Positions 1,110-28,834 of a stretch of 34,764 bases of DNA are shown in pieces. The stretch spans positions 1-34,764 of the forward strand of contig NZ_LMCM01000003.1 in assembly GCF_001426245.1 (NCBI RefSeq), given 5' to 3'. The notes under the pieces were generated by a model that saw nothing but the letters and a program-made list of their open reading frames with translations, was not told the origin of the DNA and did not search any database. The position numbers and the translations under genes were made by a program. Origin of the DNA: Phycicoccus sp. Root101 (GTDB taxonomy: Bacteria; Actinomycetota; Actinomycetes; Actinomycetales; Dermatophilaceae). Within the stretch, counting starts at the first letter, position 1. Each line of letters opens with the position of its first letter.

Positions 1110-1149
1110 AACAGCCCCTGACCGGCGTTTCCGCAGGTCAGGGGCTGTT
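1110..1149 (-). terminator. Hairpin terminator of the tRNA-Val fragment, first copy
   Basis: A 14-bp perfect stem (1110-1123 with 1136-1149) lies just downstream of the tRNA CCA end on the minus strand and is followed by a short T-rich run. It is the natural tRNA terminator carried along with the attachment site. The minus-strand distal arm differs from the copy at 28.7 kb while the rest is identical, which places the edge of the shared segment inside this hairpin. Confidence 0.75.
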
Positions 1150-1200
1150 TCGTACTGGTGGGCGATACTGGGTTTGAACCAGTGACCTCTTCCGTGTCAA
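1125..1200 (-). repeat. Attachment-site core: tRNA-Val(GAC) 3' half, first copy
   Basis: On the minus strand this contains the anticodon loop TTGACAC, the 3' anticodon stem, a five-base variable loop, a complete T arm (ACTGG-TTCAAAC-CCAGT), the acceptor 3' strand ATCGCCC, discriminator A and CCA (ending at 1156), then part of the terminator. The D arm and 5' acceptor strand are absent, so it is a tRNA fragment, not a working gene. All 76 bases are identical to 28759-28834. A tRNA 3' half repeated beside an integrase gene is the hallmark of an att site. Confidence 0.88.
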
Positions 1201-1763
1201 CGACTTTTACGCCGTCCGTGGCCGTCCATCGAAGTCCGTCTGAGCACGAACCACTCCCCCACCGTCCACCGACGTCCACCCAAATCCGCGCCCGTTGTCA
1301 CTCACTTAGTCACGCACCCGGATCGCGCACTCGGCACCGTTCAAGCCGTAGCAGACCACTCGCTCGGGCTACCGATCCCAGGGACAAATTCGCGAACGGG
1401 ACCCGCACCGCCCGCAAATGCCGCGTGCTACGGCCGGGTCTGCCCGCCCGCCTTGACCCGTGAGCTTCTGAACCCGGGAACCTCAAAGAGCTGGTGTGCA
1501 GATCTCGACAACGCCAACCTGCGTGACAGCCGGTGTGGACCGCCCCTTCCATTGCCGCGGCTACGTCGTCGCTGCCCCTATGCCCCAACTTCCGGATCTG
1601 CCAGCTTGCGACTGCGCACGGCCCGCGAAGGCGGGTTGCCTGCCGCCGATCTCGCACAGAGGCGCCTCATGGCATGTCAGGGGTCGTAAGACCTTCGTCT
1701 CATTGCCGCCAACACTTGGGGCGCGGACGCTGGAGGGACGCGAGTTCGATCTAGGAGGCCCGC
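1201..1763. other. Non-coding att flank and spacer
   Basis: No credible gene. The part to about 1280 has several imperfect CGTCC/GTCCA units (e.g. at 1212-1275), echoed at the equivalent place right of the second tRNA repeat. The stretch 1290-1420 is clearly related to 34520-34660. The remainder up to the ribosome binding site at 1753 shows nothing I can name. Confidence 0.55.
1295..1317 (+). repeat. Arm-like direct repeat, type ii (two units)
   Basis: TTGTCACTCAC (1295-1305) is followed directly by TTAGTCACGCAC (1306-1317). This type lies inside the left edge of the 27.6-kb segment; matching units lie inside its right edge (28687-28699) and at 34525-34547. Function as an integrase arm site is inferred. 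Confidence 0.55.
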
Positions 1764-2027
1764 ATGAACCATGACTCTCGCTCCCCGTCAGGGCGTAGGG
1801 ACCTGCGTCTCGTTGCAACACCACCGGTTGAAAGCGAACAGTTGAGCGACCTCATCGAAGCCGTTGTCCTGCTGCACCGCGAGGTGTCTGAACCGCTAGG
1901 CCTCCTACGGGGTGCGAGCACGCCCGTCGCCCCCATCACCTCGATTCAAGAGGCGCTTACGTCGATCGACTCACTCATCAAGGCCGCATGCCAGATCCGT
2001 CGACTCCGCCCCGTGTCCTCGGTCTGA
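1764..2027 (+). CDS. Small hypothetical protein
   Basis: An 87-residue protein of a family I do not recognise. The case for it being real is the strong ribosome binding site AGGAGG at 1755-1760, close before the ATG. The N-terminus is polar and basic (SRSPSGRRDLR); the middle (about residues 25-45 and 60-78) has a leucine/isoleucine heptad-like pattern suggesting two amphipathic helices. There is no signal peptide, membrane segment or clear DNA-binding motif. As the first gene inside the left repeat it sits where small element-borne regulators or excisionases often lie, but nothing in its sequence proves that role. Confidence 0.5.
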   Translation: MNHDSRSPSGRRDLRLVATPPVESEQLSDLIEAVVLLHREVSEPLGLLRGASTPVAPITSIQEALTSIDSLIKAACQIRRLRPVSSV

Positions 2028-2348
2028 CGGTGTACGGCTGCGTCGTCGGGGCCCGCGCGGCAACGTCCGCGCCGCCGTGGAGGCCCTGTCGGCGCCCATG
2101 GGTCTGGCAGGCGTCGCGAGTCGTCGACGAACTGGTCATAGCCAGCGAACGGGGCGCTCCGCCGCTGGCGTCTGAGCGTGGGGAGCCCAAGGCGTCCGCC
2201 CGACCGAGTGACGGCCGTTGGTAGACGCTCAGGGCATTGGGGAGGTTGTCCTTGTCCTTTCCTCACGTTCGTCAGCCGCTCCATGGACATGTCGTGTGGC
2301 GTCAAGACGGCGAACAGTGGTGTGGGCCCCTGCATGCCACCTGAGCGC

Positions 2349-2366
2349 CCGCGCGCCGGCGCGCGG
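2349..2366. repeat. Perfect 18-bp GC palindrome
   Basis: CCGCGCGCC immediately followed by its reverse complement. It lies about 160 bases before the GAF-ATPase gene. It could be a protein-binding site or simply a low-complexity GC tract; no second copy was noticed. Confidence 0.4.
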
Positions 2367-2513
2367 ACACCTCGCACGTGGCGGAGTCCAACGCGAGACG
2401 GACAACGAGCCCTTCAAACGGCGGCGAGCCTGGGACCGTCCCTGACTAGTTGGTCACGCGGTCCGGGCCCCGTCTGCTTCGCCGCGATCCCGGCGAATGC
2501 CGTCGGGGGCGGA

Positions 2514-2519
2514 TATTCT
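2514..2519 (+). promoter_or_regulatory. -10 box for an apparently leaderless gene
   Basis: TATTCT fits the actinobacterial TANNNT -10 and ends six bases before the GTG at 2526, so transcription would start at or next to the start codon. There is no Shine-Dalgarno sequence and no clear -35. The same spacing is seen before the exchanger gene (3601) and selD (7326). Confidence 0.45.
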
Positions 2520-2525
2520 GCAAAG

Positions 2526-3464
2526 GTGGCGCACACCGTCGCAAGCAGGCCTGTCCCGGAGGGGGAGACGTGGGCGCGGTCCGCGCTCTCGCGACTGGCG
2601 GACGTCCCGAGGGTCCACCGGGCCGGTCTGGCACTGGCCGAGGGTGGCGGACGACGGCTGCTGTTCACCGCCAGCGACCGCGACGACGGGCAGCGCGTCA
2701 CCTGGTGTGAGATCGACGCATACGAGCACGTCCCCCTGACCCACACCGTGCGCACCGGCGAGGCCGTGTTCGGTTCGTTGGACGACCTTGCCGCCGGATA
2801 TCAGGGGTTCGTCGACCACCAGGCCCCGCAGACGATGGCGCTGGCGTTCCTGCCCATCGTTGCGGCCGGTCACGTCCAGGGCGGGTATGCACTGTTCTTC
2901 GACGCACCCCAGTCCTTCGACCAGAAGCAACTGGCCGAGCTCGAGGACCTCGGAACGCAGTTGGGCGCGGACCTGCGCCGCGTGCAGCGCACCACCACCC
3001 ATGCCAGCAGGTCCCTGGACGCGGAGCCGGTACCGGACGACGCACAAGCGGCGACGTACTCAGTCGCGCCCGACCCTCGAGCCGTCGCTCACGCCCGCCA
3101 CTTCGCGCACAGCACCCTCACGTCCTGGGGCGTCGACGAGGGCACCGTCAGCAACGCGGTCCTGTGCCTGAGCGAGCTGGTCACCAACGCACTGCTCCAC
3201 ACCGACGCCGGATGCGAAGTCCGCGTCATGCTCGACCAGGGCGTGCTGACCGCGACCGTTCGTGACAGCGGCTCAACGGTCGTGGTAAACCCCAGCAACG
3301 TCACACGGGAGCCGTTGGCCGTCCACGGTCGTGGACTTCAGCTCGTGGACGCGTTCTCGACAAGGTGGGGCTCCCAACTGGACGCAGCCGGGATGAGCGT
3401 CTGGTTCACACTCGAGCCGGCGAACGTCGGCCTTGGTCGAGCCGCCGACCAGATAGGCCGGTAG
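2526..3464 (+). CDS. GAF-like sensor with RsbW-type ATPase domain
   Basis: About 312 residues. The first half (roughly residues 15-160) looks like a divergent GAF/ligand-sensing domain, with hydrophobic strands such as MALAFLPIVAAGHVQGGYAL. The second half (about 185-300) is a HATPase_c_2 domain of the anti-sigma-factor kinase kind: N box in LSELVTNALLHT, G1 box VRDSGS, G2 box HGRGLQLVD. In actinobacteria such proteins bind ATP and often act as anti-sigma factors, usually in the cytoplasm, but no sigma factor or anti-anti-sigma gene is adjacent, so the partner is unknown. The frame is open further upstream (to 2178), but that stretch is unlike a protein; the GTG at 2526 is preferred because a -10 box lies six bases before it. 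Confidence 0.72.
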   Translation: MAHTVASRPVPEGETWARSALSRLADVPRVHRAGLALAEGGGRRLLFTASDRDDGQRVTWCEIDAYEHVPLTHTVRTGEAVFGSLDDLAAGYQGFVDHQAPQTMALAFLPIVAAGHVQGGYALFFDAPQSFDQKQLAELEDLGTQLGADLRRVQRTTTHASRSLDAEPVPDDAQAATYSVAPDPRAVAHARHFAHSTLTSWGVDEGTVSNAVLCLSELVTNALLHTDAGCEVRVMLDQGVLTATVRDSGSTVVVNPSNVTREPLAVHGRGLQLVDAFSTRWGSQLDAAGMSVWFTLEPANVGLGRAADQIGR

Positions 3465-3588
3465 ATGGGATGCGCACTCAGACACGGTGTGAGGCCCGTC
3501 GCCCAATGCTGACGAACGAGGGCAACCTCCCCCACGGACCGGTCGGGTTCGGCAACCGTTCTAGGGCGCAGGGTGCGCGGTCAGTCCC

Positions 3589-3600: not shown

Positions 3601-4674
3601 GTGAACCTGCTGCCACACCTACCGCTCTTGGGCGAGTTGCTCGTCTTCGTCGGAGCTGCCGCACTCATCTGGGTCGCCGGCATCCCGCTGTCGAACTACA
3701 CAGACATCTTGGCCGACCGCCTCCACCTCGGGCAGGCTCTGGGCGGCCTCATCCTCCTGGCCGTGGCCACGAACCTGCCCGAGATCGCCATCACGTACAG
3801 CGCGGCGGCCAGCGGTAAGCCCGATGTGGCAGTGAGCAACATCCTCGGAGGCATCGCCATCCAGACCGTGGTCCTGGTCGCCCTTGACGCGTTCGGCGTG
3901 CGCGAACGTCGACCGTTGACCTACCAGGCGGCGAGCCTGACCTTGGTCGTCGAGGGTGCCATCGTGCTCGCCGTCCTGGTCGTGGTCGTCATGGGAACCC
4001 AGCTGCCCAAGAACCTGGTCTTCGCCCGGCTCAGCCCCGACGTCGTGCTCATTGCTCTGGTCTGGGTCGGCGGTCTGATGCTCACCCAACGAGCCGGTGG
4101 GAAGCTGCCGTGGTCGAACAGCGGCGAGGCGCCCGACAGCCAACCCAAGCCACGCGGTCACTCCCAGAAGTCTCGCTCGGACGAAGCGACCCGCAAAGGC
4201 GTCAGCACCACGCGCGTCATCCTCATCTTCGGTGCCGCAGCCGTCGCCACGCTGGTGGCCGGTGCGGTCCTCGAACAATCCGGTACCGCGGCCGCCGACC
4301 AGGTGGGCCTCTCAGGGGCCCTGTTCGGTGCCACCGTCCTCGCAGCGGCCACCTCCCTGCCAGAGCTCAGCACCGGACTGGCCGCGACCAGGCAAGGCGA
4401 CTACAAACTCGCATTCGGTGACATCTTCGGGGGCAACGCATTCCTGCCCGTCCTGTTCCTCCTCGCCGTCCTCGTGTCCGGGAAGGCGGTGCTGCCCAAC
4501 GCGCACGCCGCCGACATCTACCTGACCGGGCTCGCAGCACTGCTGACTGTCGTGTACATGGCAGGCCTGCTCTTCCGGCCGGCCAAGCAGCACGCCCGAT
4601 TGGGTATCGACAGCATCGCAGTCCTGTTGCTGTACGTCGTCGGAGTCACCGGTCTGGTCGTCCTGCCGCAGTAG
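3601..4674 (+). CDS. CaCA-family cation exchanger (Na+/Ca2+ antiporter-like)
   Basis: A 357-residue inner-membrane protein with about ten hydrophobic segments. The two inverted alpha-repeats that form the ion path are clear: ATNLPEIAITYSAA with SNILGG near residues 59-83, and ATSLPELSTGL with GDIFGGNAF near 249-282. The acidic Glu of each LPE motif is the usual cation ligand. A hydrophilic loop (about 165-200, rich in Ser, Lys and Arg) joins the halves. The family exchanges Ca2+ or other cations for Na+ or H+; the exact ion cannot be read from the sequence. It stands alone, with its own likely promoter, and no neighbour suggests a specific pathway. Confidence 0.85.
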   Translation: MNLLPHLPLLGELLVFVGAAALIWVAGIPLSNYTDILADRLHLGQALGGLILLAVATNLPEIAITYSAAASGKPDVAVSNILGGIAIQTVVLVALDAFGVRERRPLTYQAASLTLVVEGAIVLAVLVVVVMGTQLPKNLVFARLSPDVVLIALVWVGGLMLTQRAGGKLPWSNSGEAPDSQPKPRGHSQKSRSDEATRKGVSTTRVILIFGAAAVATLVAGAVLEQSGTAAADQVGLSGALFGATVLAAATSLPELSTGLAATRQGDYKLAFGDIFGGNAFLPVLFLLAVLVSGKAVLPNAHAADIYLTGLAALLTVVYMAGLLFRPAKQHARLGIDSIAVLLLYVVGVTGLVVLPQ

Positions 4675-4752: not shown

Positions 4753-4959
4753 TCAGCGCCGAACGAGCCGTCTGCGCACGCGGCGGACGGTGACGGAGTC
4801 GTATGCCATTGCCTCAGGGCGCACGGCAATTGCGAGAAGGCGCCGGTCGTACTCAGCCACGTCGAGACCCCAGCGCTGGGCGACCACTTGGTCCTTGACG
4901 CCAGCGTGACGCCACCATTCCCGTTCGAAGTCAAGGATGTCCATGTCCATATCGGTCAT
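4753..4959 (-). CDS. DUF3263 family small protein
   Basis: A 68-residue protein with the typical actinobacterial DUF3263 pattern: an ILDFEREWW motif near the N-terminus, then AQRWGLDVAEYDRRL and a basic tail (VRRVRRRLVRR). The family is small, found mainly in actinobacteria and of unknown function; the shape is compatible with a compact helical, possibly nucleic-acid-binding protein. The ATG at 4959 is chosen because AAGGGA precedes it at good spacing; the frame is open further upstream but without a binding site. It sits between the exchanger and selB with no operon partner. Confidence 0.7.
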   Translation of the reverse strand: MTDMDMDILDFEREWWRHAGVKDQVVAQRWGLDVAEYDRRLLAIAVRPEAMAYDSVTVRRVRRRLVRR

Positions 4960-5334
4960 GTGAATCCCTTCTGGAACAGTTCGAAGCCGAGCGCTTGGTA
5001 TCCCTGTACCCCGTGGTTGCCTCCTCAATCCAGCTGGAGCCTGCCTTCACAACAGCCAAGGACCTGGATCCATCACCGTGGTGCATCCGAGGTCACCACC
5101 CAGTCGGTGCCGACCGAACACCACGCTGACCACTTGGAGCCGGCCCATCTCCAGTCCCGCGCGTTCGAACGGGCGGGCTCCTAGCCCCCGGGGACAGTAC
5201 CCAGGGTGGTCCTGGCCGTGTCGACCACCACGGCCCCAGCAGGTCACTGTGCAGGTGGCTGCCTGATGGTCGTGTGAGCTCAGGGTGATCCGGGCTCGTC
5301 CCGGACTCGGCGAACGTCAGGGGCAAGCCCTGAG
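4960..5334. other. Gap between DUF3263 gene and selB
   Basis: No gene seen; in particular no remnant of selA, which often neighbours selB. The right end has two small hairpins just after the selB stop. Confidence 0.5.
5290..5333 (-). terminator. Tandem hairpins after selB
   Basis: TCAGGG-GCAAG-CCCTGA (5317-5333) starts one base after the selB stop codon on the minus strand, and CCGGG-CTCGT-CCCGG (5290-5304) follows. There is no T run, as is common in high-GC actinobacterial terminators. Termination is likely but not certain. Confidence 0.4.
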
Positions 5335-7098
5335 TCACCGCACCACGACGCGGTGGGTCCCGTCGACTCGCCGGGTCCATCCACGGCCGTCGAGGTGCTC
5401 GAGCAACGGCACCGCCACGCGTCGTGTGGTGTCGAGCGCCTGTCGGGCTTCGCTGAGCGTGAAGGGCTGGGCAAGCCCCGCCAGCACCCGCATCGCCTTG
5501 GCTGGTGCGTCGGGGGCGAGCAGGACACCGTCGGACAACCGCAGAAGGCGCCCCGACCGCACGGCTGCGGCGACCTCTCGTGGCCCGAGCCCGGCCGCCG
5601 CCAGGTCCGGTTGCTCGGGCGCGGCGAACGGCGCCTGCTGCAGTCGTGCCTCCAGCTCCTGCAACCCGCGTTCGGCCGCGCCCATGGCGGCTCGCACACC
5701 GGGGAGCCAGACCCGTCCTTGGTGGAGCTCCAGTCCGGCCCGCTCGACGACATCCGGCAGCAGCGTCCGGTCGGGGACCCCAGCGGCGAGCCGCGCTGCC
5801 TCGGTCGTGAGGCTGGGTTCGAGGGGTTCGGCGGCCGCCTGCTGCTGCACGCAAGCGATCAAGGCGTCTGCCCAGCGGTGCAACGCCGACCCCGACACCA
5901 GCCACGTGCCACGCTTCAGGACCTTCGCGTCGTCAGACGAGTCGGGGATGCCGAGCGCGGCGGCATCCGCAACGAGCATCGCGCCGCGACGCTCGACCTC
6001 CGACAGCAGCTCGGGGACGCCGGTGGCCGATGCGAGCTCCGCACCACGTCGAGCCGCGGCCCCCCGGCGCCGAAGCTCGGGGGGATCTGCGTCCAGCACT
6101 AGGGCACCACCGATGATCCGTTGCGCACCGGCGTCACGCAGGATCAGCCGGTCCCCCGCGACCAGTGGGAGCGGCATCGAGAGCGTCAGACGCACCGTGT
6201 CGTCGCCGAGCGGTCGCACGTGGACCGCCACCGCCGCGGTGCCGGCGTGAAGAGTCAGGTGATTCGGCAGGTCACCAGACGACTGGCCGCCCATACGCAC
6301 GTCCAGCACCGACGTCATGCGCCAGGCGTCGGGGGTGAGGAGCAGGTCACCACGCGCGACGTCGGACACCGCCACTCCACGGAGGTTCACCGCCACTCGA
6401 GCCACAGGGAGGACCCGGTCACGAGGTTGACCCAGGGACTCCAGCCCGCGGACCCGGGCTCGGCGGTTACCGACCTGGAGCTCGTCTCCGATCGAGATAC
6501 CTCCCCGCGACAGCGTGCCGGTGACCACGGTCCCGCTGCCGCGGATGCTGAAGGCCCTGTCCACCCAGAGACGGACACGGTCACCTGGTCGAGCTGGAGG
6601 CAGCCGGACGACCAGGCGCACCAGCGCGTCGGTGAGCTCGGTCATCCCGGCTCCGGTGCGGGCAGAGACGGCCACCGACTCGACGTCGCCCAAGCTGGTG
6701 GCAGAGAGCCGGTCGCGGGCGTCGAGCAGGGCCGGCGCGGGGTCGGCGAGATCGCTGCGGGTCACGACCAAGAGCCCGTGGGAGATCCCCAGCGCGTCGA
6801 CCGCCGCGAGGTGCTCCTGCGACTGCCTTCGCCAGCCCTCGTCCGCAGCCACCACGAAGAGCACCGCGGAGGTGGGGCCCACTCCCGCCAGCATGTTCCC
6901 GATGAACCGCTGGTGACCCGGCACGTCGACGAAGGCCACCTGCTCGCCCGAGGGCAGGGTCGTCCACGCGTATCCCAGGTCGATGGTCAGCCCGCGGCGC
7001 CGCTCTTCGTCCCAGCGGTCCGGCTCGATCCCGGTCAGGGCCCGGACCAGCGCGGACTTGCCGTGGTCGACGTGCCCGGCCGTCGCGATCACGTGCAC
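5335..7098 (-). CDS. selB: Selenocysteine-specific elongation factor SelB
   Basis: A 587-residue GTPase that carries Sec-tRNA(Sec) to the ribosome at UGA codons marked by a SECIS hairpin. The N-terminal G domain has GHVDHGKS (residues 8-15), the [12 protein letters not shown] switch region, DVPGHQRF and TRSD in place of NKxD. EF-Tu-like beta-barrel domains follow ([13 protein letters not shown] near 200), and the C-terminal third is the winged-helix region that reads the SECIS element, ending in an [22 protein letters not shown] module. Length fits the family (E. coli SelB is 614). The start is 27 bases downstream of the selC 3' end, so selC and selB are probably one transcript. Its client in this window is the formate dehydrogenase at 12003-15308. 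Confidence 0.96.
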
Positions 7099-7125
7099 GC
7101 GGCGGACCTCCTGACGAGCTGATGG

Positions 7126-7221
7126 TGGCGGAGGTGGACGGGAATCGAACCCGCCAGACCGAGATGCTCGGTCTCACCGGTTTTGAAGACCGGGGGGACC
7201 ACCAGGAACCCTGACACCTCC
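7126..7221 (-). tRNA. selC: tRNA-Sec (selenocysteine, anticodon TCA)
   Basis: A 96-base tRNA including an encoded CCA. The anticodon stem-loop is CCGGT-CTTCAAA-ACCGG with anticodon TCA at 7184-7186. A long extra arm has an 8-bp stem (AGACCGAG/CTCGGTCT) and a three-base loop, the T arm is GCGGG-TTCGATT-CCCGT, and the acceptor GGAGGTG pairs with CACCTCC. An 8-bp extra-arm stem and a UCA anticodon distinguish it from tRNA-Ser. It is charged with serine, converted to Sec by SelA using selenophosphate, and delivered by SelB. It lies just upstream of selB on the same strand and is divergent from selD. Confidence 0.97.
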
Positions 7222-7325: not shown

Positions 7326-8318
7326 ATGACCTCCAGCGCCGCCCGCCCCAGGTTGACGCAGTTCGCCCACGGGGGTGGCTGTGCCTGCAAGATCCCCCCC
7401 GGGGAGCTCGAGGACATGGTCCGCGGCCTGACCGGTATGGCGTCCCCCGACCTTCTCGTCGGACTCGATGACGGGGACGACGCTGCCGCCGTTCGCGTGG
7501 AGGGTGGTATGGCGGTCCTCGCGACCGCGGACTTCTTCACGCCGGTCGTCGACGACGCCTACGACTGGGGAAGGATCGCGGCGGCCAATGCGCTCTCCGA
7601 CATCTACGCCATGGGGGGACGGCCTGTCGTCGCCGTCAACCTGCTGGGCTGGCCACGTGACGTGCTGCCGCTAGAGCTGGCGGCTGAGGTCCTGCGCGGC
7701 GGCCTCGACGTCGGCCGGATGGCCCGGTGCCCGGTCGCGGGTGGGCACAGCATCGACGACCCTGAGCCGAAGTACGGGATGGCCGTCACCGGGATCGGTG
7801 ACCCGGACCGGTTGCTGCGCAACGACGCTGCCCGCGCGGGCACCCCCATCTCGCTGACCAAGCCGCTCGGTGTGGGCATCCTCAACAACCGCCACAAGAC
7901 GACGGGTGAGTCCTTTCCCCAAGCCGTCGAGTCGATGGCGGCCCTCAACGAGGCCGCCTCCGTCGCCGCCTTGGCCGCCGGCATCGAGGCAGCGACCGAC
8001 GTCACCGGGTTCGGCCTGCTCGGGCACCTCTACAAGATGGCTCGCGCGTCAGGGGTCACTGCCGTGGTCGACTCCGCGGCGATCCCCTACCTCGACGGCG
8101 CCCGCGAGTCCCTGGCGGACGGGTTCGTGCCCGGTGGGAGCCGACGCAACCTCGACTGGGTCCACCCCCACCTCGCTGCCAGCGTCCGCGACGACGAGCT
8201 CGTCCTGTTGGCCGACGCCCAGACCAGCGGTGGGTTGCTCCTGGCTGGCGAGATCCCCGGCGCACCCGTCGTGGGCGAGTTCGTGCCTCGTGGCGAGTTC
8301 GTCCTGCACGTCCGATGA
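7326..8318 (+). CDS. selD: Selenophosphate synthetase (selenide, water dikinase)
   Basis: A 330-residue cytoplasmic enzyme that makes selenophosphate from selenide and ATP, the selenium donor for Sec-tRNA synthesis. The catalytic loop is HGGGCACKIPP, with Cys19 in the position that is Cys or Sec in the family and the conserved Lys22. The DDAAAVRV segment and the ATADFFTPVVDDAYDWGRIAAANALSD region carry the acidic metal and ATP ligands, followed by the AIRS-type C-terminal domain (ATDVTGFGLLGHLYKMA). Length is normal. The catalytic residue is Cys, so this SelD needs no Sec itself. It is divergent from selC-selB and overlaps the rhodanese gene downstream by four bases. Confidence 0.96.
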   Translation: MTSSAARPRLTQFAHGGGCACKIPPGELEDMVRGLTGMASPDLLVGLDDGDDAAAVRVEGGMAVLATADFFTPVVDDAYDWGRIAAANALSDIYAMGGRPVVAVNLLGWPRDVLPLELAAEVLRGGLDVGRMARCPVAGGHSIDDPEPKYGMAVTGIGDPDRLLRNDAARAGTPISLTKPLGVGILNNRHKTTGESFPQAVESMAALNEAASVAALAAGIEAATDVTGFGLLGHLYKMARASGVTAVVDSAAIPYLDGARESLADGFVPGGSRRNLDWVHPHLAASVRDDELVLLADAQTSGGLLLAGEIPGAPVVGEFVPRGEFVLHVR

Positions 8319-8605
8319 CGACGCCACGGACAGTTGCCGCGGTCGACCGGCTCGGCGGCGTCATCATCGACCGCACGGTGCTGGAGTGGCCCCTGGACCC
8401 CACCTGTAGCTGGCGGATCCCCGAAGCAGACGACCCCGATCGGGTGGTCGTGGTCGTCTGCCGTCAGGGATTCAGCTCCAGCCTCGCCGCCGCGTCGTTA
8501 CGGGCCATCGGCATGCGTCGCGCCACCGACCTCGAGGGTGGGGTGGAGGCGTGGCTCGCGGCCGGCCTGCCCGTGCACGACGAGCCGGCCGACGTTCGCG
8601 AGTAG
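8315..8605 (+). CDS. Rhodanese-like protein coupled to selD
   Basis: A 96-residue single-domain rhodanese, cytoplasmic. The active-site loop is CRQGFSS with catalytic Cys49 at the end of a VVVVVC strand, followed by LAAASLRAIG and the typical ending LEGGVEAWLAAGLPV. The family moves sulfane sulfur, and sometimes selenium, as a Cys-persulfide or perselenide. The ATG lies within the selD stop (ATGA overlap), so translation is coupled. This pairing suggests it supplies reactive selenium to SelD, or sulfur to the formate dehydrogenase cofactor; the first is favoured by the coupling but is inference. The N-terminal half is short compared with full rhodaneses. Confidence 0.82.
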   Translation: MTTPRTVAAVDRLGGVIIDRTVLEWPLDPTCSWRIPEADDPDRVVVVVCRQGFSSSLAAASLRAIGMRRATDLEGGVEAWLAAGLPVHDEPADVRE

Positions 8606-9920: not shown

Positions 9921-9943
9921 TGGGCCTCCTGGTGTCTGTGACG

Positions 9944-15540: not shown

Positions 15541-15560
15541 GTCAAGCAGTCAGTCAAGCA
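15541..15560 (+). repeat. Arm-like direct repeat, type i, internal copy
   Basis: GTCAAGCAGTCAGTCAAGCA differs by one base from 1056-1075 next to the integrase. Two GTCAAGCA units are spaced 12 bases apart as in the att-flanking copies. It overlaps the last codon and stop of the HAD gene. No tRNA core is found beside it, so it may mark an old element junction between the selenium module and the rest. Confidence 0.5.
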
Positions 15561-21416: not shown

Positions 21417-21503
21417 GGCTACCTTCCTTCCCTGCGTAAGCGGACGATGAACGGCGGACGATGAAAGGTCTCTCAACGATCCTGTCGATGTCCGACCACC
21501 CTG

Positions 21504-22295
21504 CTACGAGCCGAGGATCGAGAGGAAGGCCCTCGTGCGCTCGTGCTCAGCGTTGGTGAAAAGCGACTCCGGCGGCCCTTGCTCCAGGATGCGACCGCGG
21601 TCGAACATCACGAGGCGGTCTGCCGCAGACCGCGCGAACCCCATCTCGTGGGTGACGACGACCATCGTCATCCCGTCCGCCGCCAGCTCACCCATGACCG
21701 AGATGACCTCGCCGACCATCTCGGGGTCAAGCGCGCTGGTGGGCTCGTCGAACAGCATGAGGGCCGGCTTCATCGCAAGGGCTCGGGCGATCGCGACGCG
21801 CTGCTGCTGACCGCCCGACAACGCCCGGGGACGGTTGTCCTCCTTGTCGGACAGACCGACCCGGGCCAGCAGTTCCCGCGCCTCCTCGCGTGCTTGGTCC
21901 TTGCTGATGCCGAGCACCTTGATCGGGGCGACGGCGACGTTCTCGAGCGCCGACAGGTGCGGGAAGAGGTTGAAGCGCTGGAAGACGAACCCGATCTTGC
22001 GACGCCGACGCGCGACCACACGCGGGGTGTCCTCCACCAGTCCGCCCTTCGACTCCTTGTAACCGACCGATTCGCCCAGCACCTCCACGGAACCGGAGTC
22101 GATCCGCTCCAAGTGGTTCAGGCATCGCAGGAAGGTCGTCTTGCCAGATCCTGACGGGCCGATCATCACCACGACCTCCTGCCGTTGCACCGTCATCGAC
22201 ACCGAGTCGAGGACCTTGAGCGGCCCAAAGCTCTTGACGACGTCACGCGCCTCGAGGATCACGTCGGAACCGTCATCGTGGGTGTGGATGCTCAT
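21504..22295 (-). CDS. Polar amino-acid ABC transporter, ATP-binding protein
   Basis: A 263-residue ATPase of the PAAT (GlnQ/HisP) family. Walker A is [11 protein letters not shown] loop in [16 protein letters not shown], signature [16 protein letters not shown], Walker [15 protein letters not shown], and the H loop VVVTHEM. An extra short insert after strand 3 ([19 protein letters not shown]) is a feature of a PAAT subset. ATG at 22295 overlaps the permease stop (ATGA). It powers import together with the permease and lipoprotein upstream. Confidence 0.94.
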
Positions 22296-23110
22296 CCGTG
22301 AACCGCCTTCGTCAGGGGAAGACGGGCTGGTCCGCCGAGGAGACGTTCGCGCATGCTGACCCGCTGTGTCGGCGTCGCTGGATCGCCGAACTTGCGCTCG
22401 AGCCATGCCTGCACGACCGACCAGATCGTCGTAAGGAGCAAGTAGTAGGCGGCGACCGCCATGAAGATCTCGAATGTCTTGAAGGTCGCGGAGTTGATCG
22501 ACTGGGCCGTCAGAAACATCTCCTGGACTCCGATGACGCTGAGCAGCGAGGTCGACTTCATCATCAGGTTGAACTCGTTGCCCAGTGGCGGGATCACGAT
22601 GCGGGTGGCCTGGGGCAGGATCACCGTCCGCATCGCGACGGCTGGTGACATGCCAAGGGCCTTGGCAGCCTCGGTCTGTCCATCGTCCACCGAATCGAGG
22701 GACGCTCGGATGATCTCGGACATGTAGGCGCTTTCGTTGACCGCGAGCGTGATGATCGCCGCCTGGATGACACCGAGCAAGGTCACCGACCCGAGCGTGA
22801 GGTCGCTGAACCGGTAGATACCCGTCGCGGCCAGGCCGTTGTAGACGATCACGAGCTGCACCAACAGGGGCGTGCCGCGGATGGCCCAGACGTACACGCC
22901 CCCGATCCACCCGAGCACGGGGAACCGGCTACGGCGCATCAGCGCGATCCCCAGCCCGCCGATGACGCCTAAGGCCTGAGCGAGCACCGAGATGTAGACC
23001 GTGCGCCACAGCCCAGTGAGGAACGGTCCGGACGGATGGATGACCGCGTCGACGAAGAAGCCCCAATCGAACGTCGGCTGTCCTTGGGCGGCTTGTAGCA
23101 GTGAGTGCAT
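22292..23110 (-). CDS. Polar amino-acid ABC transporter, permease
   Basis: A 272-residue inner-membrane protein with about five hydrophobic segments and the HisMQ pattern: [33 protein letters not shown], and the EAA loop [22 protein letters not shown] that contacts the ATPase. The single permease probably acts as a homodimer. It follows the binding-protein gene after a 51-base gap and overlaps the ATPase gene. Confidence 0.93.
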
Positions 23111-23161
23111 GAGTCCTGTCGATCCGTGGTCGTCATGTCGGTCGGAGGTCGTGCCGCTGTG

Positions 23162-24043
23162 TCAGCTCGCGGGGAGGGCGTCGTCGGTGAGCGACCAATT
23201 CTTCAAGATCGCGTCGTACGTTCCGTCGGCTCGCACCGCGGCGAACGCCTTGACCAGTGCGGCGTTCAGGGCGGCGTTGCTCTTGGCAGTCGCGATGCCC
23301 GTCTCGATCTTGCCGAACGGCTTGCCGACGGTCTCGAAGGTGCCGGGCTGCTGCTTGATGGCGTAGCCGGCGATCTCGACCGTGGTGCCGTAGGCGTCGA
23401 CGAGGCCGAGCTTCAGTTGCTGCTGAGCCTCGGAGTCACGGCCGAACTTCGAGACGGCGATGGTGGGCTTGCCAGCGGCCTGACACTTCTTTGCTTGGGC
23501 GTCAAGGAGGTCCACGATGGTGGTGCCGGTCTGGGCAGCGACCTTGCGACCGCACAGGTTCTCGATGCCAGTCACGGCACCGGGGTTGCCCGCCTTCACC
23601 AGGACCGTATTGCCCGCGTACATGTACGGCACGAAGTCGACGACCTTCTCGCGCTCCGGCTTGATGTATAGCTGCGACATGATCGCGTCGCACTGACGTC
23701 CCTGCAGGGCCGGAATGATGCCGTTGAAAGCAACATTCTGCCACGTCGACTTCAGGCCTAGCTGCTTGGCGATGGCGTCGCCGAGCTCAATCTCGGTGCC
23801 GACAGCCTTCTGGTCCTTGTCGAAGTACGTCAAAGGCGGTGCACTGATGTCGGCACAGAACGTCAACGTTCCTGAGGAGATCAGCGAGCTGGACGGCACC
23901 GCCGCCGACCCTCCGCCCGACCCTGAACTGGAGTCGGACCCCGTGGATCCTCCGCCGCATGCGGACAGCAGCGTCGCCGCGGCCACGACCGCCACGACGC
24001 TGATCGAGTACCGGACGGCTGAGGTGGTTCCGTGTGACTTCAT
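23162..24043 (-). CDS. Amino-acid-type ABC solute-binding lipoprotein
   Basis: A 293-residue secreted lipoprotein. The signal peptide ends in lipobox LLSAC with lipidated Cys29, then a Gly/Ser linker. The SBP_bac_3 fold follows: LTFCADISAPPLTYFDKDQKAVGTEIEL, VAFNGIIPALQGRQCDAIMS, and DAYGTTVEIAGYAI. The family binds polar amino acids or their derivatives. An AAAGGT ribosome binding site precedes ATG 24043. It heads the minus-strand operon and lies divergent to the GntR regulator; a FadR-type operator at 24081-24091 sits in its leader, so repression by that regulator is likely. Confidence 0.93.
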   Translation of the reverse strand: MKSHGTTSAVRYSISVVAVVAAATLLSACGGGSTGSDSSSGSGGGSAAVPSSSLISSGTLTFCADISAPPLTYFDKDQKAVGTEIELGDAIAKQLGLKSTWQNVAFNGIIPALQGRQCDAIMSQLYIKPEREKVVDFVPYMYAGNTVLVKAGNPGAVTGIENLCGRKVAAQTGTTIVDLLDAQAKKCQAAGKPTIAVSKFGRDSEAQQQLKLGLVDAYGTTVEIAGYAIKQQPGTFETVGKPFGKIETGIATAKSNAALNAALVKAFAAVRADGTYDAILKNWSLTDDALPAS

Positions 24044-24080
24044 GGGCGACCTTTCGGGGGCTGCGCGATGCGAGGCTCAT

Positions 24081-24091
24081 TGGTCTGACCA
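24081..24091. promoter_or_regulatory. Candidate GntR (FadR-type) operator, ABC operon side
   Basis: TGGTCTGACCA is a perfect 11-bp palindrome matching the FadR-subfamily consensus TNGTNNNACNA. It lies 37 bases before the lipoprotein start codon. A near-identical copy lies at 24233-24243, before the divergent regulator gene. Confidence 0.7.
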
Positions 24092-24232
24092 TCCAGACGC
24101 TAGGGGCTTGACGGGCTAACGTCAATCAATTCGAAGAAGATCCGGTCACTGACGACGTAAATCGCACATAAACGCGACTTCACGTACGGATATAGTCGTT
24201 CTAGCGAGCGGCACATGTAGCATGCTGACAAC

Positions 24233-24243
24233 AGGTCAGACCA
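24233..24243. promoter_or_regulatory. Candidate GntR operator, autoregulatory side
   Basis: AGGTCAGACCA matches the complement of the first operator at 10 of 11 positions. It ends ten bases before the GntR ATG and touches its AAAGGAG ribosome binding site, so binding could block both transcription and translation of the regulator operon. Confidence 0.68.
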
Positions 24244-24253
24244 AAGGAGCGCC

Positions 24254-24985
24254 ATGATCGACTGGCAACACCTCGCTCATGAGCAACGATCGGCACCTAC
24301 GACGATCTCTGCGCGCATCCACGAGCTGATCTCCGATGGCGACCTCGTCCCCGGCGAACGCATCCCCGCCGAACGGGAGCTCTCGACAGCCCTGGGCGTC
24401 TCGCGCGCTACCGTTCGAGAGGCGCTACGCGAGCTCGAGCTGCGCGGACTGATCGACCGACGCCGCGGCCGCGGCACCGTGGTGGTCGAGTCGCAGCGCC
24501 CCGAGATCACCTCATCGCTGTTCGGCGACATCGACCCCACGACCAGGGCCTTGCGCGAGGTCATGGACATGCGCGGCGTCATAGAACCACCGATCGCCGA
24601 GCGGGCCGCGACGCGTGCCAGCACCGACCAGATCGAGCGACTTGCGGACCTCGTGGCGCAGGCCGCTGACGAGATCGACCGCGGTGTCGACCCGCAGCGC
24701 TACGTCGAGCTCGACGTCGCCTTCCACCTGACGCTCGCACGGATGACGGCTAATCCTCTGCTCGAGCGGCTGCTGACCGTCACACATGAATGGATGGCGC
24801 CCTCGCGGCGGTCGTCCCTCGAGACCGAGACCCGCATCCATCGCTCGTTGGCCGCGCACCGCCGCATCCTCGACGCGGTCCAGCGCCACGACCCAGCCGC
24901 AGCGTCCCGCGAGATGACCGCGCACATCAACGACATCCTCACCGTGATCGCCGGCGACGGCCCGACACCTACGAAGGCAGGCTGA
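24254..24985 (+). CDS. GntR-family transcriptional regulator, FadR subfamily
   Basis: A 243-residue cytoplasmic repressor. The winged HTH (about residues 18-80) has GDLVPGERIPAERELSTALGVSRATVREALRELE in the order expected for GntR. The C-terminal FCD domain (about 95-230) shows metal/ligand residues D and H in the helices (ELDVAFHLTLA, HRRILDAVQRHD). FadR-type members sense small carboxylates or amino acids. It is divergent from the ABC operon, has its own operator copy, and its stop is one base before the next start, so it is co-transcribed with the gamma-glutamyltransferase-like gene. RBS AAAGGAG. Confidence 0.93.
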   Translation: MIDWQHLAHEQRSAPTTISARIHELISDGDLVPGERIPAERELSTALGVSRATVREALRELELRGLIDRRRGRGTVVVESQRPEITSSLFGDIDPTTRALREVMDMRGVIEPPIAERAATRASTDQIERLADLVAQAADEIDRGVDPQRYVELDVAFHLTLARMTANPLLERLLTVTHEWMAPSRRSSLETETRIHRSLAAHRRILDAVQRHDPAAASREMTAHINDILTVIAGDGPTPTKAG

Positions 24986-24986
24986 C

Positions 24987-26555
24987 ATGAGCTCCGATAC
25001 CTCCCGATGGGCCGTCGCCACCCCCCACGCCAGCGCCACCGACGCCGCTGAGAAGGTCTTCCGTGAAGGTGGCAACGCCGTCGACGCCGCCCTGGCCGCC
25101 GCCAGCGCACTTACCGTCGTCTACCCCCATCAGTGCTCGATCGGTGGCGACTGCATCGCGCTGGTCGGTCTGCCTGACGGCACGACGCACGTCGTCATGG
25201 GCGTCGGTCGAACGCCGGCGGATATGTCGCTCGACTCCTTCGCCGACATGACGACGATGCCGGTCGACGGCGCGCTGACCGTCACCGTGCCCGGCGCGGT
25301 CGGCGCTTGGCACACCATGGCCGAGCGTTGGGGCTCGGTCGGACTGACCTCGAGCCTCGAGGTCGCACGACGAATGGCATCCGAGGGCGTCCCGGTCGCT
25401 GCCGGCCTGGGCCGCGACCTGTTCCGCGAGGAGCACCGCATCCTGGCCGACCCGGGCCTGCGCCAGGTCTTCGCGCCCAACGGACGCCCCCTCGCGGCCG
25501 GTGAGCAACTCGTCCAGCCCCGGCTCGCCGCCAGCCTGCAGGCCATCGCCGAGTCGGGTCAGGACGCGCTGTACCGCGGCGACCTAGCCCGCAGCATCAC
25601 CGCGACCCTGCAGTCGAGGGGCTCAGCGATGACCACAGAGGACTTCGCAATCCACGAAACAGTGGTCGACGTCCCCGTCTCCGCGACGTACGACGGCCGG
25701 GAGTACGTGACCGCTCCGCCGCCATCGCAGGGCGCTTTCTTCCTCGAGGCCGTGACTGCACTCGAGCTGATCCGCCTCGCCACCGGCAAACCCCTCGATC
25801 TCGACGGGCCGGACGCCGCCACCGTTGCGATGGTGCTGGGAGACGTCGCCGAAGACCGCGACCGCCTGTTGGGCGACCCCGCGGTGTCCCCGCTCGACCT
25901 GGTCCAGCTGATGGGTACCCGCGCCCGCGAGATTGCGCAGCTTGACTCGGCGCCGGCGACCGGCCCGCGCAACCCACCACCCACAGGCGACACGGTCGCG
26001 GTCGTCACCTCCGACGGATCCGGCACCTGGGTCTCGCTCATCCAGAGCCTGTTCCACGCGTTCGGGTCCGGCATCCTCGACCCCGAGTCAGGCATCATCC
26101 TGCACAACCGCGGTGCGTCGTTCTCCGTCTCCCCCAACCACCCGGGAGCCGTCGCACCCTCGCGTCGCCCTCCTCACACACTGATGCCGGTGCTTACGCG
26201 TGACGACGGTGTGCTGTCCGGCGCCCACGGGACGATGGGCGGTCGTGCGCAAGCGCAGATCCACGCACAACTCGCACTCCGCCTCGCGACCGGCGACCTG
26301 CCAGGGGCAGCGATCGGCAGACCCCGCTGGGTCGTCGGCCTGATGGAGGAGGGGTACCGCGACCAACGCACCGTCGGAGTCGAGGCAAACGCCCCGGCTG
26401 CCGTCGCGCACGCACTACGCGCGACCGGCTTCGAGGTCACCGAGCTCCCCGCCAACGACGACGGGGTCGGGCACTCGCAGATGGTGCGGCGCTACCCTTC
26501 CGGATTGGCCGCAGCAAGCGACCCCCGCTCCGACGGCAGCGCGCGGATCGGGTGA
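24987..26555 (+). CDS. Gamma-glutamyltransferase-family hydrolase
   Basis: A 522-residue Ntn-hydrolase of the Ggt family. N-terminal FREGGNAVDAALAAASALTVVYPHQCSIGGD is the characteristic large-subunit region. The nucleophile Thr is in GDTVAVV (Thr336), where autocleavage would separate large and small subunits, followed by SLIQSLFHAFGSGILDPESGIILHNRG and GTMGGRAQAQ. There is no signal peptide, so unlike many Ggt enzymes it is probably cytoplasmic. It likely hydrolyses a gamma-glutamyl amide or related compound imported by the ABC system; substrate unknown. Start ATG is one base after the GntR stop. Confidence 0.9.
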   Translation: MSSDTSRWAVATPHASATDAAEKVFREGGNAVDAALAAASALTVVYPHQCSIGGDCIALVGLPDGTTHVVMGVGRTPADMSLDSFADMTTMPVDGALTVTVPGAVGAWHTMAERWGSVGLTSSLEVARRMASEGVPVAAGLGRDLFREEHRILADPGLRQVFAPNGRPLAAGEQLVQPRLAASLQAIAESGQDALYRGDLARSITATLQSRGSAMTTEDFAIHETVVDVPVSATYDGREYVTAPPPSQGAFFLEAVTALELIRLATGKPLDLDGPDAATVAMVLGDVAEDRDRLLGDPAVSPLDLVQLMGTRAREIAQLDSAPATGPRNPPPTGDTVAVVTSDGSGTWVSLIQSLFHAFGSGILDPESGIILHNRGASFSVSPNHPGAVAPSRRPPHTLMPVLTRDDGVLSGAHGTMGGRAQAQIHAQLALRLATGDLPGAAIGRPRWVVGLMEEGYRDQRTVGVEANAPAAVAHALRATGFEVTELPANDDGVGHSQMVRRYPSGLAAASDPRSDGSARIG

Positions 26556-26562: not shown

Positions 26563-27303
26563 ATGATCAGACGGCTCGGGGCACTGCCCCGCGACGCCTT
26601 CCACCTGGGGCTGATGCTCGCCCTCACGTTCTCGACGGGTGTCATCGACGCGGTCGGCTACCTCGGCCTCGACCGGGTCTTCACCGGCAACATGACGGGC
26701 AACGTCGTGGTCCTTGGCATGGCGCTGGTCGGAGGCACCGGGCTGCCGGTGCTCGGCCCGCTCCTGGCTTTAGTCGGATTCATGGCGGGCGCTGCCTTCG
26801 GTGGTCGCATGCTCAAGTCGGCGGGTCCGGGGTGGACGGCACGGACCACGGTCCTGTTCACGATCGTTGGGGTCCTGATGCTCGGGGTCGCGGCGTTGCT
26901 GCTGGCGATCGAGGAGGATGTGAGCCCGCCGTTGCGTGTCACGGTCACCACCGTCCTCGGCGCAGCGATGGGCATCCAGGCGGCCACTGCCCGATTCATC
27001 GCGGTCAAGGACGTCACGACGGTCGTCGTGACCTCGACCCTCACAGGTCTTGCCGCCGACTCGGTGCTAGGCAGCGGCAAGGGCGCTGGGAGCGCCCGGC
27101 GCACGGCCGCGGTGATCCTGATCCTTGCCGGCGCCTTCGCTGGCGGCGCCCTGCTGAAGTGGCATCTTGGCGGAGGCCTCCTCCTGGCCGGCTCCATCAC
27201 GTTGGCCGTCACGCTACTCGGGGCACTGCACGCTCGACACCACGTTCCTGCCAAGGACCCGACCGAAGCATCGAGCATCGGGTCTCACGCCGCCCGCGCC
27301 TAG
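26563..27303 (+). CDS. DUF1275 (YoaK-like) membrane protein
   Basis: A 246-residue protein with six hydrophobic segments. The opening LMLALTFSTGVIDAVGYLGLDRVFTGNMTGNVVVLGMAL is diagnostic of the DUF1275/YoaK family, and GIQAATARFIAVKDVTTVVVTSTLTGLAAD is its second conserved block. Function is unknown; a transport role is plausible. It starts eight bases after the gamma-glutamyltransferase-like stop, so it belongs to the GntR operon. Confidence 0.85.
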   Translation: MIRRLGALPRDAFHLGLMLALTFSTGVIDAVGYLGLDRVFTGNMTGNVVVLGMALVGGTGLPVLGPLLALVGFMAGAAFGGRMLKSAGPGWTARTTVLFTIVGVLMLGVAALLLAIEEDVSPPLRVTVTTVLGAAMGIQAATARFIAVKDVTTVVVTSTLTGLAADSVLGSGKGAGSARRTAAVILILAGAFAGGALLKWHLGGGLLLAGSITLAVTLLGALHARHHVPAKDPTEASSIGSHAARA

Positions 27304-27653
27304 CGCGCACCCCGACTACCGCACTGCCTCATCTGCCTTGGCGAACCGCCGCTCTCCTGGACGATCGAGCTCATACCGTCCACGTCGATGACCTGACCGG
27401 TCAGGTAGGACATGGCAGGCGACTCGATGAACGTGCCGACCTCCTTGAGCTGACCCGAGCGCCCCTATGTGAATCGCCCGACCCATGGCGCGCTCTCACT
27501 CGGTCCACGACGATATCGCGCTGCGACCGCGTTGGACCTGATGCTATGGGGTGCGAGGGCGACGGAGCCGGTAAGACCGACGACCGCCGCCCTCGAGGCG
27601 AGGTACGCGGCATCGTCCGGGAGCGCCGTCACCGGTCCGGACACGGACGCCAC
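27300..27653 (-). pseudogene. Decayed short-chain dehydrogenase (SDR) remnant
   Basis: The minus strand still reads DDAAYLASRAAVVGLTGSVAL and HSIRSNAVAA, the Yxxx(K) helix and following strand of an SDR, with Arg in place of the catalytic Lys. After a frame shift near 27460 it continues with VGTFIESPAMSYLTGQVIDVDG, the typical C-terminal substrate-loop region. The N-terminal Rossmann half is missing. It is a truncated, frame-shifted relic; its end overlaps the stop of the DUF1275 gene on the other strand. Confidence 0.72.
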
Positions 27654-27721
27654 AGATCACAACGACGTTACCCAGACCCGGCACGAGGGTCGCGGTCCTG
27701 CTACATTCCGCCGGCCTTGCA

Positions 27722-28573
27722 TCAGCTTTGCCTGGAGCGAGGCCGACGCGGACGTAAGCAGCCGGCGCCCTCGTGAGACTGACGAGTCTTGGCTCCGGTG
27801 TGGGCATCACGCATGGCCTGATGGCTGGCGAGGATCCCGTGGAGCTCCTTGGCCCGGGCACCGCTGATGTCACCGTCCTTGCAGTACCGACGCCAAGCAT
27901 CCGCGGCAGCGACACCTCTGACCACATGGACCTCGTCCACGACCGCCCAGTCGTTCTCCAGCTGTCGCGCGCCAGGTCCCCAGATGATCAGCACCGCCTC
28001 GACAGACACGTCCCTGACTCCTTGGGAGCGAAGGATCGATCGCACGGACCTGGCGCTCGAGCGGGCACCATCCATCGCCGCCTCGCGATAGCGGTCCGTC
28101 GCCCACTGCCGGCCAGCACCGACGAACTTGGTTTCGATCGCCAGCACCGCGCGCGGACTCACCGCGACGTGGTCGATGTTGCGCTTCTCCATCGGAACGT
28201 CGTCCAGGAACGGCCAACCGAACTCCCGGCTCTCGAGAACCTCCCGCGTGAACGACTCGCCCCACTCCCCCATCGTCACCGGATACGTCCGGATCAACGA
28301 CGTCACGAACACCATCCATGCCCAGCTCGTCACCAGTGCCCCGGCGAAGGCCCCTCGAACCATGGCCGGCCCGACCGGCAACACCACTACTACCAAGGCG
28401 GCACCCAGCATCCAGGCAGCGGCCGCCACGATGTTGCGACGCCCGCTCCACAGCTCGGTCCGCACCATCTCCCACCGACGCCGCTGCTCGAACGTCCTCC
28501 TCCCCCGTCTCAACACCCCAACAGTCTGCGACAAGAGGCCCCGGGCGAAGGCAGGAATGCGCTCAGTCCGCAC
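27722..28573 (-). CDS. NERD-domain membrane protein
   Basis: About 283 residues. A basic N-terminus (about 1-48), then two hydrophobic helices (about 49-70 and 74-93), then a NERD nuclease-related domain (about 100-215): GEWGESFTREVLES, FLDDVPMEKRNIDHVAVSPRAVLAIETKFV, and a Lys/Asp-rich region. The NERD fold resembles PD-(D/E)XK nucleases; D and ExK residues are present (IDHV ... AIETKF). Function is unknown, perhaps DNA handling or defence. GTG 28573 is the tentative start; no strong binding site is seen. A truncated second copy lies right of the second tRNA repeat (29255-29390). Confidence 0.75.
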   Translation of the reverse strand: MRTERIPAFARGLLSQTVGVLRRGRRTFEQRRRWEMVRTELWSGRRNIVAAAAWMLGAALVVVVLPVGPAMVRGAFAGALVTSWAWMVFVTSLIRTYPVTMGEWGESFTREVLESREFGWPFLDDVPMEKRNIDHVAVSPRAVLAIETKFVGAGRQWATDRYREAAMDGARSSARSVRSILRSQGVRDVSVEAVLIIWGPGARQLENDWAVVDEVHVVRGVAAADAWRRYCKDGDISGARAKELHGILASHQAMRDAHTGAKTRQSHEGAGCLRPRRPRSRQS

Positions 28574-28686
28574 AAGGCGTCAGCAGTGAGTCGACCCAAG
28601 ATCCCTTGGCAGACGCCGGCCGCCAACGCACGGCCACGGACGCGGGCGGACCTCAACGGATGGCCGCTCCGAGTGAGCGCGAGGGA

Positions 28687-28699
28687 CTTAGTCACTCAC
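28687..28699 (+). repeat. Arm-like repeat, type ii (one unit)
   Basis: CTTAGTCACTCAC lies about 60 bases left of the second tRNA core, in the same relative place as the type i pair beside the integrase at 1053-1075. Its sequence type matches the left inner edge at 1295-1317, which supports 1.1-28.8 kb being one element. Confidence 0.5.
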
Positions 28700-28745
28700 C
28701 AGCAGGGAAGAGGTCAGATCCAGCCCCTCGAGCCCGACAACGAAG

Positions 28746-28781
28746 CAGCCCCTGATCTGCGTTTCCGCAGGTCAGGGGCTG
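28746..28781 (-). terminator. Hairpin terminator of the tRNA-Val fragment, second copy
   Basis: A 13-bp stem with one G-T pair (28746-28758 with 28769-28781) follows the tRNA CCA end on the minus strand. The arm next to the tRNA is identical to the first copy, the distal arm is diverged yet still pairs. Confidence 0.72.
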
Positions 28782-28834
28782 TTTCGTACTGGTGGGCGAT
28801 ACTGGGTTTGAACCAGTGACCTCTTCCGTGTCAA
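28759..28834 (-). repeat. Attachment-site core: tRNA-Val(GAC) 3' half, second copy
   Basis: Identical over all 76 bases to 1125-1200: terminator arm, CCA, acceptor 3' strand, T arm, variable loop, anticodon 3' stem and anticodon GAC. Sequence beyond it on the right diverges, and the 5' half of the tRNA is missing here too, so the intact tRNA gene must lie further right, outside the window. Confidence 0.88.

Follow-up and report, generated by a model that had tools for sequence, protein, structure and literature searches.

Cis-mobilizable elements (CIMEs) retain both attachment sites, lack genes for integration or transfer, and lie beside an element of the integrative and conjugative (ICE) type with the same specificity, as set out in excerpts of PMC5704250. 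Accretion of actinomycete ICEs (AICEs) and DAICEs at tRNA genes is reported from Streptomyces and Frankia in parts of two further accounts (PMC9513070, PMC3218068). The selenocysteine (Sec) trait is also reported to transfer together with formate dehydrogenase (FDH), and some Sec users have no known selenoprotein, which the excerpted text mostly ascribes to incomplete genomes (PMC5029168). Genomes with two tRNA-Sec genes are listed in PMC5330540, an excerpt of which places those of Photobacterium profundum 3TCK in two complete operons. Here we describe a 27.6-kb segment in a 34,764-bp stretch of DNA (the window), which is the complete contig C3 of the 12-contig, 4.38-Mb genome of Phycicoccus sp. 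Root101 (G000), an actinobacterium of the Pedococcus/Phycicoccus group. The segment is likely a CIME-like unit in a tandem array of islands at tRNA-Val(GAC), carrying a Sec-FDH “plug-in” that has no Sec synthase gene (selA) and would depend on the resident SelA. Comparisons were made across 11 genomes of the genus (G000 to G010), among them the sister species (G001), Pedococcus bigeumensis (G003), Phycicoccus sp. Soil748 (G006), and Pedococcus sp. 5OH_020 (G009).

The segment is bracketed by a 76-nt exact direct repeat on the same strand (1125-1200 and 28759-28834), the longest in the window, for which about 8e-34 pairs are expected by base composition. The two copies lie 27,634 bp apart from start to start, and the similarity around them amounts to 94% over 99 nt and 84% over 225 nt. 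The first-pass annotation had described perfect repeats of the 3′ half of tRNA-Val(GAC) and its terminator around an integrated or stacked element, and the repeat indeed consists of the 3′ part of this tRNA gene from the anticodon loop onward plus a terminator hairpin. ARAGORN found no tRNA-Val in the window, where both copies are fragments, and an intact tRNA-Val at the matching copy on contig C2. The junctions and the motifs around them, which may serve as arm sites of an integrase, are as follows.

1112..1210, minus strand: attachment junction 1, with the tRNA-Val(GAC) 3′ half at about 1159-1200 and the terminator; exact part 1125-1200
28746..28844, minus strand: attachment junction 2; exact part 28759-28834
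1054..1076, plus strand: paired TTAGTCAAGCA motifs left of junction 1, putative integrase arm sites
1295..1317, plus strand: paired TTGTCA/TTAGTCA motifs right of junction 1, putative arm sites
28689..28699, plus strand: one putative arm motif, to the left of junction 2
28929..28951, plus strand: pair of putative arm motifs, to the right of junction 2
34492..34561, plus strand: third arm-type remnant, without a tRNA core

The remnant at 34492-34561 is 74% similar to the flank of the junction at C6:568621. An old attachment site inside the segment was considered and discarded, as the stretch from 1.4 to 28.6 kb contains neither arm-type motifs nor junction matches.

A search of G000 with the repeat returned 14 matches, eight of which are copies with the tRNA part; the other six are the terminator hairpin matched to its own opposite strand. 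The eight junction copies lie on four contigs: two on C3, four on C6 (568,621, 575,354, 588,666, and 620,882), one on C12 (7,874), and one on C2 (50,793). Among the six loci outside C3, ARAGORN found an intact tRNA-Val only on C2, where it follows tRNA-Gly and tRNA-Cys. Read by eye, paired TTGTCA/TTAGTCA-type motifs stand right of all seven partial copies, and one or two arm-like motifs stand left of six of them; the absence of a left motif at C6:568,621 is what a chromosomal far end of the array would show. The repeat has four matches in G001 and a single one in each of G002, G004, and G010. The genes upstream of the intact tRNA-Val are conserved across the genus, and those downstream of it vary between genomes. 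G000 carries a tandem array of tRNA-Val(GAC) islands, and the segment of the window is likely one unit of it. Repeats found elsewhere without a link to gene gain had been named beforehand as evidence against a mobile element, and the other copies in G000 proved to be junctions of the same array.

The unit keeps an attachment junction at each end, and its called genes include no integrase or transfer family (Pfam; NCBIfam for fdhA); the 87-aa open reading frame (ORF) at 1764-2027 belongs to no family. The only integrase in the window lies just outside the segment, next to junction 1.

49..1056, plus strand: tyrosine recombinase (integrase) of the left element (Phage_integrase, PF00589, E 2.9e-19)

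Its reading frame extends without a stop to the edge of the contig, and the N-terminus may therefore be cut. The left neighbour thus has a site-specific integrase beside an attachment site, as an ICE does, and this integrase is 94% identical to the one adjoining the intact tRNA-Val in G001 and 86% identical overall (94-98% by piece) to the one on contig C2. The rightmost element of G001, about 56 kb at the intact tRNA, encodes an integrase, a TrwC relaxase, a TraG/D-type coupling protein, and a DnaG-type primase. A relaxase and a coupling protein are seen together on one element in G001; pieces of this ICE in G000 are spread over contigs C12, C6, and C2, that is, over contigs other than the window. 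The window starts with 200 nt that contig C2 matches at 99.5% identity, so G000 probably has two ICE-type ends that break the assembly; both ends of the window, being those of a whole contig, are assembly breaks. The tyrosine integrase of the left neighbour might work on the common junctions and thereby mobilise the segment, by itself or together with this neighbour.

The central cargo of the unit is a 10-kb module (5335-15383) encoding Sec machinery and an FDH with one in-frame UGA.

5335..7098, minus strand: selB, type I, 587 aa (TIGR00475, 270.9 bits; cut-off 242.25)
7126..7221, minus strand: selC, tRNA-Sec (UCA), type I (ARAGORN, Rfam)
7326..8318, plus strand: selD, type I (TIGR00476, 381.8 bits; cut-off 125)
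8315..8605, plus strand: rhodanese-like protein (Pfam)
8631..9932, minus strand: lactate/formate-type MFS transporter, start uncertain, the listed ORF starting at 10085 (NF049980, 423 bits; cut-off 320)
9944..11011, minus strand: NrfD-like membrane subunit, nrfD (Pfam)
11008..12132, minus strand: fdhB, Fe-S subunit, start uncertain (Pfam, NCBIfam)
12003..15383, minus strand: fdhA, formate dehydrogenase alpha, with the UGA (Sec) at 14739-14741 (NF041513, 1939.8 bits read through the UGA)
14692..14746, minus strand: predicted bacterial Sec insertion sequence (SECIS) hairpin just after the UGA (fold and conserved sequence)
12300..14830, minus strand: fdhA recombination tract, 92-96% nucleotide identity to Pedococcus cremeus, borders to about 500 nt

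The presence of selC, selB, selD, and a Sec-FDH between the repeats, as first annotated, is thus borne out by the tRNA-Sec, by NCBIfam, and by the in-frame UGA. Coding bias is present on both sides of the fdhA UGA, and the context of this codon is conserved. Twelve of the 13 modules listed have almost the same hairpin sequence; they come from the genus group, Terrabacter, Humibacillus, Janibacter, and Knoellia. The exception is that of Phycicoccus sp. Soil748, with an N in place of the hairpin. This single N replaces about 60 nt directly after the UGA (locus L044, about 2114; locus L158, about 9998) and is probably an assembly gap.

Of the parts of a self-sufficient Sec trait, the island holds selB, selC, selD, and a UGA-containing client gene, and no selA. 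The sole selA of G000 is at C7:375386-376720, within a second locus near tRNA-Ile/tRNA-Ala that comprises a complete selD-selC-selA-selB set. The SelA (TIGR00474, 403.1 bits), SelB, and SelD of this locus pass the NCBIfam cut-offs, SelB narrowly (255.4 vs. 242.25 bits). The island tRNA-Sec equals that of C7 at 83 of 96 positions, and G000 has only one strong FdhA. The module may therefore operate as a plug-in, in which SelA of the C7 locus would charge the island tRNA-Sec, and the island SelB would then read the fdhA SECIS.

The distribution of these genes across the genus is consistent with such sharing of SelA. Each of the 11 genomes has one SelA, none of which lies in the other seven module I loci of the genus. 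The 11 proteins form one clade (SH-aLRT 99) apart from that of P. cremeus, whose module retains its own SelA (seen at the module locus only), like those of Terrabacter and Humibacillus. SelB type I is present in 8 of the 11 genomes, with 64-73% identity to the window SelB in the other seven, and FdhA is found in the same eight; SelB type II is present in five (55-59% to the window SelB), and both types occur in G000 and P. bigeumensis. SelD was found at 12 places in the 11 genomes and splits into two groups in the tree. Six genomes have SelB I only, and their second locus retains selA alone (G002, G006, and G010), selA and selD (G005 and G009), or selA, selC, and selD (G008). The SelA of locus II is combined with a type I tRNA-Sec in five genomes, and SelB I with a type II tRNA-Sec in G008. 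The species of this genus appear to run hybrid Sec machineries, in which selA always comes from locus II and selB, selC, and selD from either locus.

Usually in this genus the module occupies a core locus. It lies between nrdJ/ycaQ and lexA (hereafter the core site) in six genomes (G002, G003, G005, G008, G009, and G010) and beside lexA in P. cremeus, in which the other side falls outside the fetched stretch. The core site carries no tRNA-Val repeat and is without the module in five genomes (G000, G001, G004, G006, and G007); the module lies elsewhere in G000, in which it is found only in the array, and in G006. Synteny of the whole segment at a repeat-free site had been set down as grounds for giving up an integrated element: the 10-kb module is syntenic at such a site in 6 of the 11 genomes, whereas the whole segment is not. 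A tree of six core proteins joins G000 with G001 (100/100; 92.1% identity), although P. cremeus is only 36% filled in it and several deeper forks are open. The comparison with sister strains that had been suggested agrees with a gain between the repeats in so far as G001 has no FDH, no module, and an empty core site. Most simply, the module would be ancestral at the core site and have been lost there in the lineage of G000; since it is absent from that site and present in the array, it was either regained from outside or relocated.

A move of the resident core-site module into the array within the lineage, without transfer between species, is a serious possibility, though one to which we give less than an even chance. 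FdhB, NrfD, SelB, and SelD fall with or close to their counterparts in genus relatives, and FdhB and NrfD are 85% identical to those of G002, near the core identity of 88.6%. The core site of G000 is empty, and the GC content of the module (69.6%) lies inside the range of other stretches of G000 (66.6-71.1%). On the other hand, the site is likewise empty in G001, which has no module, so a move in the common ancestor would need an extra loss there. In addition, the fdhA tract was exchanged with another lineage. Compared with P. cremeus in 500-nt steps, the module is 66-84% identical up to 12.3 kb, 92-96% between 12.3 and 14.8 kb, and 78% beyond, and three comparable core proteins of P. cremeus are only 66.6% identical (776 positions). 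Moreover, in quick trees FdhA groups with P. cremeus (SH-aLRT 99), and FdhB and NrfD group with G002 and P. bigeumensis (SH-aLRT 96 and 97). These patterns indicate that fdhA was recently exchanged with a P. cremeus-like lineage.

It is rather unlikely that the island sel genes are redundant passengers near decay, with the resident set decoding everything. G000 does have two each of selB, selC, and selD, and other genomes lack redundant copies at one or the other locus. Nevertheless, the frames of the island SelB, SelD, and FdhA are intact, and all 8 genomes with FDH have SelB I and all 3 without FDH lack it, though the genes adjoin; SelB II alone never occurs with FDH in the 11 genomes.

Much less probable still is the idea, put forward in the first-pass annotation, that a cell unable to decode UGA received the entire Sec trait and its client enzyme through the element. 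Its appeal lies in the presence of selB, selC, selD, and the Sec-FDH together between the junctions and in the transfers of the Sec trait with clustered FDH reported in other bacteria (excerpts of PMC5029168). However, the complete second locus of G000, with its apparently selected SelB (see below), is shared with the sister G001, and the island has no selA. Only an acquisition of the C7 locus later than that of the island would rescue the idea, and the clade of the C7 SelA, which spans all 11 genomes, argues against it. An assembly artefact or contamination is scarcely credible: although the window is a whole 34.8-kb draft contig with a near-identical repeat at its left end, the genome has a completeness of 100 and a contamination of 0.01, the left end of the window matches G001 (94.5%) and contig C2 (95-99.5%), and the NERD-domain gene and junction at the right end match contig C6 at 574-575 kb (84%) and are also found in G006.

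Several points weigh against a CIME-like plug-in all the same. The SECIS hairpin folds at -21.5 kcal/mol (z -1.75), only modestly better than shuffled sequences, 8 of 200 of which fold as well. No decayed integrase, relaxase, or transfer remnants were seen in the segment to mark a descent from an ICE. The order of the array contigs in G000 is a reconstruction, and the search for a chromosomal boundary at the array's far end was negative, as no gene left of C6:568621 has a counterpart in the stretches fetched around tRNA-Val of other genomes. Finally, the hybrid combinations involving selC hold for the fetched loci, in which alone this gene was sought.

The SelB of the second locus is distinct. 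Type II proteins, found at L017:10724-12169 (C7) and at L239-L242 in five genus genomes, are about 480-510 aa long, with about 110 aa missing from the middle of the C-terminal portion. All five keep the SelB-wing_3 domain, which binds SECIS. SelB II appears to be under purifying selection, as dN/dS is 0.22-0.30 in three pairs; SelB I gives 0.19-0.22 in two pairs. In a family survey scoring eight candidates per genome, 119 of 186 genomes have a SelB match (E up to 1e-30), and the top five rows (at least 462 bits, 58-100%) are the five SelB II genomes of the genus, the next scoring 341 bits. Two SelB matches were found in G000, P. bigeumensis, and G058, the pair in G058 being contig-edge fragments.

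SelB II is present and no FDH was found in G001, G004, and G007. The client of SelB II was not found in coding-bias scans for which no known second selenoprotein served as a control. Over 20 loci, the scan recovered the Sec codon of fdhA in three of three FDH loci along with four other sites. It was extended to 140 kb around the second locus for G004, G007, and G000 each, to 20 kb of P. bigeumensis and G001, and to the window, and gave 18 alignments of conserved TGA sites, which by eye resemble stops between neighbouring genes; several have a Met or a ribosome-site-like GES-M just downstream. An unfiltered read-through scan of the sel loci produced 2215 sites and was discarded, as the matches listed looked like shadow frames. 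HesB/IscA (PF01521) was rejected as a client, with matches in all 11 genomes and an in-frame stop in none of 14. The UGSC family had no match in the 11 genomes, in a search without a working control, which does not show its absence. We tentatively picture two Sec branches that depend on one SelA. The first would be mobile and serve FDH, with SelB I, tRNA-Sec I, and the fdhA SECIS; the second would be resident, with a miniature SelB II and a selenoprotein yet to be discovered. The parts would be freely exchanged across the genus, and the module plugged in, moved, or dropped.

The cargo of the segment outside the Sec-FDH module is largely catabolic.

2178..3464, plus strand: GAF and HATPase regulator, start uncertain (Pfam)
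3601..4674, plus strand: Na/Ca exchanger (Pfam)
4753..5028, minus strand: DUF3263 protein (Pfam)
15550..18045, minus strand: HAD type II dehalogenase-type protein, SRPBCC-type protein, and Rv2466c-like mycothiol nitroreductase
18501..26555: catabolic cluster with a kinase-aminotransferase fusion, an amino-acid-type ABC transporter, a GntR regulator, and a gamma-glutamyltransferase
26563..27303, plus strand: DUF1275 membrane protein
27722..28573, minus strand: NERD-domain gene

The Na/Ca exchanger has a copy with 92% protein identity beside the junction at C6:620882. A NERD-domain gene stands directly beside a tRNA-Val junction in three elements, namely in the window, at C6:574318-575145, and at C7:1027577-1028551 of Phycicoccus sp. 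Soil748; the unit of the window has no recognisable integrase, and the other two elements were scanned only partly. An ARAGORN call of tRNA-Ala(agc) at 3456-3542 was rejected, being absent from the Rfam results at the gathering score. Outside the segment, the ORFs at 29538-30680 and 30705-33284 lie end to end in different frames without a Pfam match and are possibly one broken secreted-type gene.

Two further settings of Sec genes were considered. The module I of Phycicoccus sp. Soil748 (C6:512-532 kb, L044) is located neither at the core site nor at a tRNA-Val copy. Its placement on an island was not supported, as 60 kb around it contain no tRNA except selC, and the nine flanking proteins scanned include no integrase, transposase, or other mobile-element family above cut-off. 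SelB matches on plasmids (E up to 1e-40) occur in 138 records, all below 60% identity, of which the best five are actinobacterial; by these similarities, Sec genes ride plasmids too, but not the module of the window.

Genetic code expansion tends to be presented as all or none; in G000, a stacked island holds a code-expanding module that has no Sec synthase of its own. Six sister species that run on apparent two-locus sel hybrids offer a natural test of which parts of the Sec machinery can replace one another. Moreover, the three species with a full sel locus, an apparently selected SelB, and no FDH found point to an undiscovered selenoprotein.

In the literature searched, no report of a selA-less Sec-FDH module in a tRNA island of a cell with a complete Sec locus turned up, and nothing on selenocysteine in Pedococcus/Phycicoccus. 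The closest likeness is to CIMEs and tandem ICE-related accretion as excerpted from PMC5704250, with which the unit of the window shares the attachment sites, the lack of integration and transfer genes, and the ICE-type neighbour. It differs in its Sec-FDH cargo and in the eight junctions on four contigs, and the likeness stops short of demonstrated descent from an ICE. The AICE and DAICE accretions resemble it as actinobacterial tandem integrations with direct repeats, and the tandem elements of Frankia can excise together according to the excerpted accounts (PMC9513070, PMC3218068); the difference lies in the ICE at tRNA-Val of G001, which encodes a TrwC relaxase together with a coupling protein of the TraG/D type. 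The islands at ssrA of Dehalococcoides likewise carry a respiratory enzyme (vcrABC) in tandem at one RNA gene, but they use a serine recombinase, and the excerpts of that account mention no Sec genes (PMC3146451). Photobacterium profundum likewise has duplicated Sec genes with two selD per genome (parts of PMC1273633 and PMC5330540), whereas the extra set of G000, that of the tRNA island, is without selA, and across species components of both loci are mixed. Tandem tRNA islands and a CIME-like unit are therefore known features, and what is unusual is a Sec-FDH cargo without selA in a host that already has a complete Sec locus.

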